Source: Algisphaera agarilytica
GTDB lineage: Bacteria; Planctomycetota; Phycisphaerae; Phycisphaerales; Phycisphaeraceae
Assembly: GCF_014207595.1 (NCBI RefSeq)
Contig: NZ_JACHGY010000001.1
Coordinates: 3,230,836-3,294,835 of the forward strand
Direction: 5' to 3'
DNA length: 64,000 nucleotides
Of the stretch, positions 8,699 through 57,734 are shown one piece after another. Below the pieces are notes generated by a model that ran no database searches, was not told the DNA's origin, and saw nothing but the letters and a program-made list of their open reading frames with translations. The position numbers and the translations under genes were made by a program. The first letter of the stretch is position 1. Each line of letters begins with the position of its first letter.

Positions 8699-10384
8699 AT
8701 GTCCGATCCTGCCACCCAGCCCCACCCCAGCCTGCCCGATCCGCAGAGGTTCGCGCAGCGTTTCGCCGCCGCGCAATCCGCCCCGGCCGAAAGCCACCCC
8801 ATCATCCCCGTGTTCCGCCGCCTGCTCAACGATTCGTTGACGCCGGTGTTGGCCTACCGCCGTCTGGTCCGCCCCGACGACCGCATGGCCCCGAGCTACC
8901 TCTTCGAGTCTGTCGTCGGCGGAGACCGTGTAGGCCGTTTCAGCTTCCTCGGCAGCCGTCCCGCCGCCGAGGTCGTTGCTCGTGGACACGAAGTCGTCTA
9001 CACCAACCATGCCGCGCCTGACGAGTCACGCACCTTCACCAGCGACGACCCGCTGATGGAAATGCAGAAACTCACCGCCAACTACGCGTTGGATGAAGAA
9101 TCCTACGCCTTGCTCCCGACCAACCTCCCCGGCGCGGGCGGCTGGGTCGGCGTCGCGGGGTACGACACGGTGCGTTACCTCGAAGGCGAGTCGCTGCCCA
9201 ATCCCGCAGCCGACGACCGTCAACTCCCCGATCTGCACATGCAGCTCTACCTCGACACGGTCGTCTTCGACCACGTGCAGAAGACGCTGCTGCTGATCAC
9301 TTTTGCGCAGGTCAAGGAACACGGCACGGCCGAGGACGCCTACGCCGCGGCGCAGTCGCGCCTGGACGACCTCGCGTCACGTCTTCTGGAGTCCGACGTC
9401 GCCGACGGCATCAGCCTCCCGCCGGGGCACGTCTCGCTCGACACGCCGCCGCCCACGCTGCCCGACAGCAACATGGGGCAGGGCGGTTACCAGAAGGCTG
9501 TCGAAGCCTGCAAGGAATTCATCCAGGCGGGCGACGCGTTCCAGATTGTGCCGTCGCAGCGGTTCGAGGTGCAGACCCAGGCCGACCCGTTCGACATCTA
9601 CCGTTCGCTGCGGGTGGTGAACCCGTCGCCGTACATGTTCTACCTGCAGATCGACGGCGGCATCCTCGTGGGCTCGTCCCCCGAGATCCTGGTCAATGTC
9701 ACCGACCGCATCGCCACCAGCCGACCCCTCGCGGGCACCCGCCACCGCGGCGCGACGCCCGCCGAGGACGCCCGCCTCGAAGCCGAGCTCCTGGCCGACC
9801 CCAAGGACCGCAGCGAGCACATCATGCTCGTGGACCTGCACCGCAACGACATCGGCCGGATCGCCGAGCCCGGCACCGTCGAACTCCCCGAGCTCCTGGT
9901 CGTCGAAAAGTACTCCCACGTCATGCACATCAGCTCGGCCGTCCAGGGCAGGGTCCGCGACGGCCTCACCGCCTGGGACGCCCTCCGCGTCAGCCTGCCC
10001 GTCGGCACGGTCAGCGGGGCCCCCAAGGTCCGGGCGATGCAGATCATCGACGACCTCGAGCCCACCCGCCGCGGCCCCTACGGCGGGGCGGTGGGCCACG
10101 CCGACTTCGCCGGGAACATGGACATGTGCATCGCCCTGCGGACGATGGTGATCCTTCCTTCTAGGGGCTTGGAGGTTGGGGGCTTAGGTGTCGGGAAAGA
10201 TGCGGGGGAAGGTGATCCAAGTCCCCAGGCCCCCAAGTCCCCAGGCGCCCAATGGACCGTCCATATCCAGGCCGGGGCGGGCATCGTCGCCGACTCCGAC
10301 CCAGACGCCGAGCACCAGGAGACCGTGAACAAAGCCGCGGCGCTCGCCAAGGCTGTCGAGGTCGCCGAACACCTGTTCACGTAA
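8699..10384 (+). CDS. trpE: Anthranilate synthase component I
   Basis: A 561-residue chorismate-utilising enzyme making anthranilate for tryptophan synthesis. The N-terminal domain has SYLFESVVGGDRVGRFSFLG, the region that binds feedback tryptophan in the family. The catalytic domain shows GTRHRGATPAED, LVDLHRNDIGRI and LPVGTVSGAPKVRAM, all expected. Between RTMVIL and WTVHIQAGAGIV lies a 32-codon insert (10157-10252) rich in Gly, Pro and Ser, not expected in the family. The ATG at 8699 is chosen over a GTG at 8651. No trpG, trpD or trpC is adjacent. Confidence 0.93.
   Translation: MSDPATQPHPSLPDPQRFAQRFAAAQSAPAESHPIIPVFRRLLNDSLTPVLAYRRLVRPDDRMAPSYLFESVVGGDRVGRFSFLGSRPAAEVVARGHEVVYTNHAAPDESRTFTSDDPLMEMQKLTANYALDEESYALLPTNLPGAGGWVGVAGYDTVRYLEGESLPNPAADDRQLPDLHMQLYLDTVVFDHVQKTLLLITFAQVKEHGTAEDAYAAAQSRLDDLASRLLESDVADGISLPPGHVSLDTPPPTLPDSNMGQGGYQKAVEACKEFIQAGDAFQIVPSQRFEVQTQADPFDIYRSLRVVNPSPYMFYLQIDGGILVGSSPEILVNVTDRIATSRPLAGTRHRGATPAEDARLEAELLADPKDRSEHIMLVDLHRNDIGRIAEPGTVELPELLVVEKYSHVMHISSAVQGRVRDGLTAWDALRVSLPVGTVSGAPKVRAMQIIDDLEPTRRGPYGGAVGHADFAGNMDMCIALRTMVILPSRGLEVGGLGVGKDAGEGDPSPQAPKSPGAQWTVHIQAGAGIVADSDPDAEHQETVNKAAALAKAVEVAEHLFT
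10157..10252 (+). repeat. In-frame G-rich/C-rich repeat-like insert within trpE
   Basis: A 96-bp stretch whose left half is G-rich (ggggcttggaggttggggg) and whose right half is C-rich (ccccaggcccccaagtcccc), so the halves can partly pair. This composition is typical of intergenic palindromes rather than of trpE. It is exactly 32 codons and keeps the frame. It lies at a variable turn just before the conserved QAGAGIV strand. Confidence 0.6.
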
Positions 10385-39361: not shown

Positions 39362-41110
39362 ATGCTCCGCGAATTGCATATCTCCAACCTGGCGGTGATC
39401 GAAGACGCAACGGTCGAGTTCGAGCCCGGGCTCAACGTCTTCACCGGGCAGACCGGGGCGGGGAAATCACTGGTGATCGGGGCGTTTGAAGCCCTGATCG
39501 GCCTCCGCAAAGCCACCGACATGATCCGCCCCGGGGCCGACGAGGCCCGGATCTCCGGCGTGTTCGAGGCCGACACCCCGGCCTTGGCCGCGGCCCTCAC
39601 CGCGGCGCTCGACCAGACCATCGAGCCGGGCGACGAGATGCTCATCACCCGCAAGCTCTTCGCGTCCGGCCGATCGTCGCTCTCCGTCAACGGCCAGCCC
39701 GCCACCGCGGCGATGATGCGCCGCGCCGCCGACCTGCTCGTCGACATCCACGGCCAGTACGACCATCAGTTCCTGCTCAAGCCCTCCAACCAACTCACCA
39801 TCCTTGACGCCTTTGCGGGCTGCGTGGCACAGCGTGAGAAGTTCGCCGTGGCCTTCGCCGAGCGGCGTGAGCTGCGGATGGAAAAAGAAGAACTCGCCGC
39901 CTCGGCCACGCTCCGTCGGCAGCAGCTCGAACTGTACGAATTCCAGGCCGAGGAGATCGATACGGCCGAGCTCCAGCTGGGCGAGTTCCCCGAGTTGCAG
40001 GCCCGCGAGACGGTGCTCGGCAACGTGCAGAAGATCAAGGGCGAGGCGAGCGCCGCGCACAGTGCGCTCTACGACGCCGAGGGTTCGGTGACCGAGCGGC
40101 TGCAGGCGATCACGCACCTCATGATCGATCTGGCCGAGCTCGACCCCGGGCTCGCCGAGGTGACCGATCAGGTCCGCACCTGCACGCTCAGCCTTCAGGA
40201 AGCCGCGTTTGAACTGGGACGCTACGTCGATCGACTCGAGCACAACCCCGAGGAAGCCGCGGAGGTGGCCGAGCGGTTGAACACCATCAACCGCCTCGTC
40301 CAGAAGTACGGCGACGGCGTGCCCTCGCCCGACCCCGTCGAGTCGGTCCTGAACTTCCGCGACGAACTCGGCGAACAACTCGACCACCTACGCAGCCAGA
40401 ACCACGACCAGTCCCGCATTGACGAACGCATCGCTCAACTCGACAAGCAACTCGCCCAGCTCGGCGAAAAGCTCACGCTCGCCCGGCGGAAAGCCGCGAA
40501 GAAACTCACGCCGCAGATCGAGAAACAGCTCGCCGACTTGGGGATGGCCGAGGCGAAGCTGTCGGTCGCCTTCGACCGTATCGACGATTCGCCGACGGGG
40601 TTCGACGCCGTCGAGATCATCGTCCAGACCAACCCCGGCCAGGAGGCCCGCCCGATCCGCAAGATCGCCTCGGGCGGCGAGTTATCCCGCACCATGCTCG
40701 CGATCAAGTCCGTCCTCGCCACCACCGGCGACGGCCAACGCATTAGCGTGCTGGTCTTCGACGAGATCGACGCCAACATCGGCGGCCGCCTCGGCAGCGT
40801 CATCGGCAGTAAACTCCGTGCCCTTGCTAAGCCGCAAGCGGCGGGCAAGAGCAATCGCCAAATCGCGAAATCACCCAATCACCAAATCCTCTGCATCACC
40901 CACCTCCCGCAGATCGCCGCTTTCGCCGACCGCCACTTCCACATCGTCAAGACCGTCGTGGGCAAGGGCAAAGCCAAGCAGACCCACACCACCGTCGGCA
41001 CCCTCGAGGGCGACGCCCGCGTCAACGAACTCGCCGAGATGATGGCCGGCGAGAAAGTCACCGCGACCAGCAAGAAGCAGGCGAAAGAATTGCTCAATCA
41101 GGCGATGTGA
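39362..41110 (+). CDS. recN: DNA repair protein RecN
   Basis: A 582-residue SMC-like ATPase acting early in double-strand break repair. The start is LRELHISNLAVIEDATVEFEPG-like and Walker A is GQTGAGKS. A coiled-coil middle follows (residues 160-400). The C-terminal lobe has IASGGELSRTMLAIK (signature), VLVFDEIDANIGG (Walker B) and CITHLPQIAAFADRH. Between LRALA and HQILCITHLPQ lies a 17-codon insert (40829-40879), not expected in the family. The ATG at 39362 is chosen because family members begin ML.ELHI.N. Confidence 0.93.
   Translation: MLRELHISNLAVIEDATVEFEPGLNVFTGQTGAGKSLVIGAFEALIGLRKATDMIRPGADEARISGVFEADTPALAAALTAALDQTIEPGDEMLITRKLFASGRSSLSVNGQPATAAMMRRAADLLVDIHGQYDHQFLLKPSNQLTILDAFAGCVAQREKFAVAFAERRELRMEKEELAASATLRRQQLELYEFQAEEIDTAELQLGEFPELQARETVLGNVQKIKGEASAAHSALYDAEGSVTERLQAITHLMIDLAELDPGLAEVTDQVRTCTLSLQEAAFELGRYVDRLEHNPEEAAEVAERLNTINRLVQKYGDGVPSPDPVESVLNFRDELGEQLDHLRSQNHDQSRIDERIAQLDKQLAQLGEKLTLARRKAAKKLTPQIEKQLADLGMAEAKLSVAFDRIDDSPTGFDAVEIIVQTNPGQEARPIRKIASGGELSRTMLAIKSVLATTGDGQRISVLVFDEIDANIGGRLGSVIGSKLRALAKPQAAGKSNRQIAKSPNHQILCITHLPQIAAFADRHFHIVKTVVGKGKAKQTHTTVGTLEGDARVNELAEMMAGEKVTATSKKQAKELLNQAM
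40829..40879 (+). repeat. In-frame low-complexity insert within recN
   Basis: A 51-bp stretch encoding 17 residues between Walker B and the conserved CITHLPQ strand. The second half repeats caatcgccaaatcgcgaaat-like words with a period of 8-9 bases, unlike the rest of recN. Such A/C-rich reiterations are typical of intergenic DNA. It preserves the frame. Confidence 0.45.

Positions 41111-55610: not shown

Positions 55611-57734
<2,124 letters not shown>

Follow-up and report, generated by a model that had tools for sequence, protein, structure and literature searches.

The question raised by the trpE gene of Algisphaera agarilytica (genome G000 in what follows) is how a segment of its coding sequence comes to be written in short words that this organism otherwise has mostly between its genes. 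An earlier note on the 64,000-nucleotide stretch analysed here (the window) had described a 32-codon insert, G-rich on its left and C-rich on its right, placed in frame just before the QAGAGIV strand of the enzyme, and this description is borne out. The segment lies at 10157-10252 (residues 503-534), keeps the frame and is flanked by ALRTMVI and W-TVHIQAGAGIV. Because the net gain of TrpE is only 25 amino acids relative to the congener G002 and 18 relative to the congener G001, the figure of 32 codons describes the whole loop and not the exact inserted length. The gene that carries it codes, to judge from its sequence, for a genuine anthranilate synthase component I: its product scores 543.9 bits against the TIGR00564 profile (cutoff 517.7) and is the single TrpE match in the genome at the threshold used. 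Its true start may be an ATG located 16 codons inside the open reading frame.

Coordinates (window numbering) of trpE, of the repeat element within it and of the adjoining structural features
Feature	Position	Strand	Basis or remarks
trpE, anthranilate synthase component I, 577 aa	8651..10384	+	Open reading frame; TIGR00564 above cutoff; PF04715 and PF00425
Beta strand preceding the loop, residues 498-503	10142..10159	+	AlphaFold2/DSSP
In-frame inverted-repeat element within trpE	~10161..10248		Dispersed words and inverted-repeat score; missing in congeners G001 and G002
Left arm, G/T-rich, GGGGCTTGGAGGTTGGGGGCTTAGG, encodes GLEVGGLG	10164..10188	+	Dozens of matches dispersed in the genome, mostly at 88-96%
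Spacer, unique, 28 nt, encodes about GVGKDAGEGD	10189..10216		Dissimilar to the spacers of other copies
Right arm, A/C-rich, CCAAGTCCCCAGGCCCCCAAGTCCCCAGGCGC, encodes PSPQAPKSPGA	10217..10248	+	Includes a 16-nt tandem repeat (D1)
Beta strand following the loop, residues 535-542, TVHIQAGA	10253..10276	+	AlphaFold2/DSSP

The base composition of the insert is strongly asymmetric, its left third being keto-rich (skew +0.50) and its right third amino-rich (skew -0.44), and its two halves are inverse repeats of each other (z = 3.1; 31/2000 shuffles). By the same score a copy of this element in priA reaches z = 14, and the more modest value in trpE is found because the trpE copy has diverged. The folding energy of the corresponding RNA is not unusual in comparison with shuffled sequences (z = -0.5), and we therefore make no claim of an RNA structure. 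An imperfect 18-nt direct repeat (10137-10154 and 10201-10218, 15 of 18 positions identical) ties the host sequence that precedes the insert to the spacer and could be a trace of the insertion; considered as a target duplication, it was judged to be borderline by chance.

In an AlphaFold2 model for which 20 TrpE sequences were aligned, and which is confident overall (mean pLDDT 83), residues 508-531, between the two strands, have a pLDDT below 50. The residues that are invariant among the 20 sequences all lie outside the loop, the conserved TrpE motifs are intact, and the length of the loop varies across the whole family. The insert is most likely a tolerated disordered extension, a Gly/Pro-rich linker from which no specific function is expected.

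The suspicion that the words of the insert are those of dispersed intergenic repeats proved to be well founded. Searched by BLAST with the trpE arm, the 4.17 Mb genome yields about 60 matching places, and the pattern GGGGGCTTRGG has 69 matches there versus 18 for its reversed control, with no comparable excess in any of 60 relatives. The counts rest on searches by pattern and by BLAST, together with 54 regions of the genome that were fetched and read; about 33 of the 54 clusters contain two or more words and are mostly intergenic, and the approximately 21 that contain a single word are probably due to chance. Some 16 copies are bi-armed, G-rich on the left and C-rich on the right without exception, and the repeat units, built of GGGGGCTTRGG words, alternate between 8 and 7 nt. 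The intergenic copies hug the borders of the genes: between the stop codon and the first base of the G-rich arm there are mostly 5-22 nt, and between the last base of the C-rich arm and the following ATG mostly 3-33 nt, in an order that is identical for co-directional and divergent neighbours. At least six copies are genic and in frame (in trpE, priA, a DUF58 gene, gpsA, mutL and an ABC-F gene). Those of trpE, priA and the DUF58 gene occupy length-variable loops, that of gpsA lies just before the LSGPS motif, and those of mutL and the ABC-F gene lie in the linkers of the respective proteins.

This is not the only repeat DNA in the genome. At L146, L151, L155, L160, L176, L192 and L193, one-armed copies of the words adjoin a longer conserved repeat (gttgagccgggcgttcgctctttggaaat) and GTAGGTCAGGC...GCCTGAC palindromes, neighbours that, in sequence, look like GTAG-tagged REPs. 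In the spacer of L188 there are further heptamer arrays of the C side that belong to different word families (ccgaaatccgaaatctaaaatccgaaat), which suggests nested arms. Within the window, mnmG carries two in-frame copies (56409-56504 and 57354-57446) of another dispersed palindrome, with the peptide KPADAxLRRGSDA...PQPRAF, whose arms match about a dozen further places in the genome; the parallel that had been drawn between trpE and mnmG, each with a different element, accordingly holds. In recN, a heptamer-like tract (AATCGCCAAATCGCGAAATCACCCAATCACCAAATC; 40829-40894) lies in frame directly before the conserved CITHLPQ motif.

A comparison with the TrpE of relatives, as the earlier note had proposed, takes the matter further. 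The insert is missing from both congeners, G001 and G002, which have short loops without a repeat and an overall TrpE identity of about 66%, and its peptide, which that note had described as having no counterpart in typical TrpE, is not conserved across genera, so that the conservation which would have spoken for a normal loop under selection was not found. Beyond what that note had claimed, the element is bi-armed, it occurs in frame in other genes too, and the same TrpE loop is filled with different words in other genera. It is this use of different words at the same positions in different genera that is the less expected part of the finding. In TrpE of G015 there is a 35-residue loop at the same place, made of other G-rich and C-rich words that recur 12 times elsewhere in that genome. 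The PriA loop that follows GSATPSLES carries the words of G000 in G000 and AGTTTCG heptamers, with 91 matches genome-wide, in G024; in G020 it holds a strong palindrome with few further copies in that genome, and further repeat-like tracts occupy it in G010, G005 and G023. Three other open reading frames of G024, of which one is RecG-like and one hydantoinase-like (named by eye), contain its word set in frame as well, and the copies of that genome have arms of about 32 nt, the best of them aligning at 77-81% over nearly the full element.

The intergenic counterpart of these loops is the gap between accB and accC, which contains a significant inverted repeat in 10 of the 25 genomes in which it could be measured (z from 4.4 to 13.5), again with differing word sets; its median length is 126 nt when armed versus 75 nt when unarmed. 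Even within one genus the words differ, though G000 and G002 are both armed at this gap, because the congeners' heptamer GGCTARC (the GCTARCGGCTARC pattern), with 29 matches in G001 and 23 in G002, is absent from G000. The reversed control of the same pattern occurs about 240 times in G016, and there must consequently be another abundant short word in that genome.

How such copies arise can be approached by comparing them with one another. Among the 16 copies of G000 no shared spacers were found (best score 11.0 versus a mean best of 10.4 after shuffling), nor were there any among the five copies of G024 that were examined, although young copies would be expected to have spacers in common had arm, spacer and arm moved together. 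The longest direct repeats that flank the copies average 4.1 nt versus 3.6 nt in shuffled sequence. Since the spacers are unshared and target duplication is lacking, the copies do not appear to stem from the transposition of an arm-plus-spacer unit. The two arms of a copy resemble each other no more than they resemble the arms of other copies (0.603 versus 0.600), and their origin by a local inverted duplication was rejected on this ground.

We regard it as probable, with a good measure of doubt, that what trpE carries is an in-frame member of a family of short inverted repeats peculiar to this genome, consisting of a G/T-rich arm, a unique spacer and an A/C-rich arm in units of roughly 7-8 nt, and that its arms were added in place. 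The arms would have been added to the left and right of DNA that was already present and under no constraint, either between genes or in a surface loop. The process responsible would be a local one at the DNA level, for instance slippage or template switching, primed by words of which the genome already had many, and no complete unit would have been transposed. Selection would then retain only the in-frame, stop-free versions, and these in permissive loops. The lengths of the accB-accC gap would fit arms laid around an existing stretch, as would the peptide of the trpE spacer, whose GKDAGEG resembles the unarmed loops PEDAGW of the congener G002 and PADAGGW of G027. It is from these lengths and this one short peptide likeness, in sequences whose nearest relatives are distant (about 66% in TrpE), that the notion of arms around an old loop is drawn.

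The principal competitor to such addition in place is a mobile palindromic unit of the RPE or MITE type, in which arms and spacer move as a whole through an enzyme acting in trans and the recurrence of the same loops merely reflects the small number of permissive sites. The dispersal of palindromes, in frame, through unrelated core genes of G000, and with other words through those of G024, is what such a unit would be expected to produce, as is the similarity of the best G024 copies over nearly their full length, with arms of some 32 nt. The spacers, unshared in both genomes, the lack of target duplication and the arms that are unmatched within copies all speak against it, and although transposition of a unit followed by rapid decay of its spacer is possible, we consider mobility of this type to be rather unlikely. 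Simple local expansion, by polymerase slippage that G-quadruplexes might assist, of DNA that is under no constraint would likewise yield a tandem, unit-like structure in low copy number that is strongly confined to gene borders and loops, and slippage has been discussed for heptameric repeats (PMC4692102). The shared vocabulary would then be a mutational bias and nothing else; bias alone, however, explains neither why exact words that are frequent in one genome are missing from a congener (the GCTARCGGCTARC pattern, 0 in G000 versus 23-29) nor the fixed order of a G/T-rich left and an A/C-rich right arm. It appears improbable to us.

Two more mundane explanations carry far less weight. That the segment is an ordinary lineage-specific loop of TrpE, maintained by selection and unrelated to any repeat, accords with the variable length of the loop across the family and with the preservation of the frame; it is nonetheless very hard to reconcile with the word-level DNA match to intergenic loci, the presence of the same family in five other genes and a peptide that is not conserved in the congeners, and we give it little credence. 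An artefact of assembly or sequencing might be feared in a genome that consists of 6 contigs and has repeats that are hard to assemble, but the genome is 99.75% complete, the window lies inside a 4.1 Mb contig, the frame is intact and the same architecture is seen in independently assembled genomes, so that this explanation is the least credible of all.

The nearest known parallel to these copies is found in the G-rich heptamer repeats that Rehm et al. 2015 (PMC4692102) described in Xanthomonas (GGGAATC) and Nostoc (GGGGA(C/T)T). These occur genome-wide, with 70-75 inverted, converging pairs, and their G-rich strand lies mostly less than 50 nt after a stop codon or, in antisense, less than 50 nt before a start; 7-11% are intragenic in Xanthomonas, 68% are intergenic in Nostoc, and 83% of the repeats are found at corresponding positions, in unchanged words, in two species (PMC4692102). 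The approximately 16 bi-armed copies of G000 likewise form pairs that are inverted and converge, the G-rich strand lying at the 5' edge, and are located within 50 nt of a stop (sense) or a start (antisense) whatever the direction of the genes, and the family is mostly intergenic with an intragenic minority. They differ in that the tandem 7-nt GGGANTN or GGGGAYT units are replaced here by other words in mixed 8- and 7-nt units, in that the words of congeners differ at the same place and in that copies are found in frame in loops of several core proteins. Repeats of the heptameric type fold as G-quadruplexes in vitro; in the trpE copy long loops separate the G-runs. The in-frame trait, dispersed palindromic DNA that is apparently tolerated in unrelated protein genes, recalls the palindromic elements of Rickettsia (Ogata et al. 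2000, as related in PMC10969869). In that account, however, the Rickettsia families of about 150 bp have a conserved encoded peptide, and the elements so described are set apart from ours, in which the spacer is unique to each copy and only the words of the arms are shared. The REP and BIME sequences, GTAG-tagged palindromes (PMC3733652), are also short, dispersed and intergenic, but the spacers here are long and variable and no regular GTAG tag stands beside the arms: GTAG or CTAC was found in only 5 of 16 flanks, in some of them as part of the stop codon. GTAG-like palindromes of a different type do occur elsewhere in this genome. The target-site duplication of MITEs was not seen in these copies. 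The tandem repeats of Borgs, as presented in PMC9879509, similarly turn young DNA repeats into disordered protein segments; they belong to extrachromosomal elements of archaea and are arranged in direct tandem, unlike the inverted pairs of shared words described here. We found no report of such repeats in planctomycetes in the open-access literature, a corpus that leaves most subscription journals outside.

It is conceivable, although we lean against so broad a proposal, that members of the family share a genome-wide process by which the words current in each genome are written, in the form of inverted arms, to either side of unconstrained DNA, and this at recurring intergenic and loop positions; a change of vocabulary would then lead to the rewriting of the same positions, in a manner like the concerted evolution of dispersed repeats. 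Whatever the process, two known oddities, the G-rich heptamers that hug gene borders and the palindromes inside proteins, are joined here in one bacterial family, in which the turnover of the vocabulary can be traced from one locus to the next. Comparisons across genera that might separate transposition from rewriting in place are readily made at the accB-accC gap and at the loops of TrpE and PriA. There is also a warning for annotation, since additional residues in a core protein of this group can be encoded by repeat DNA of recent origin and need not be functional domains.
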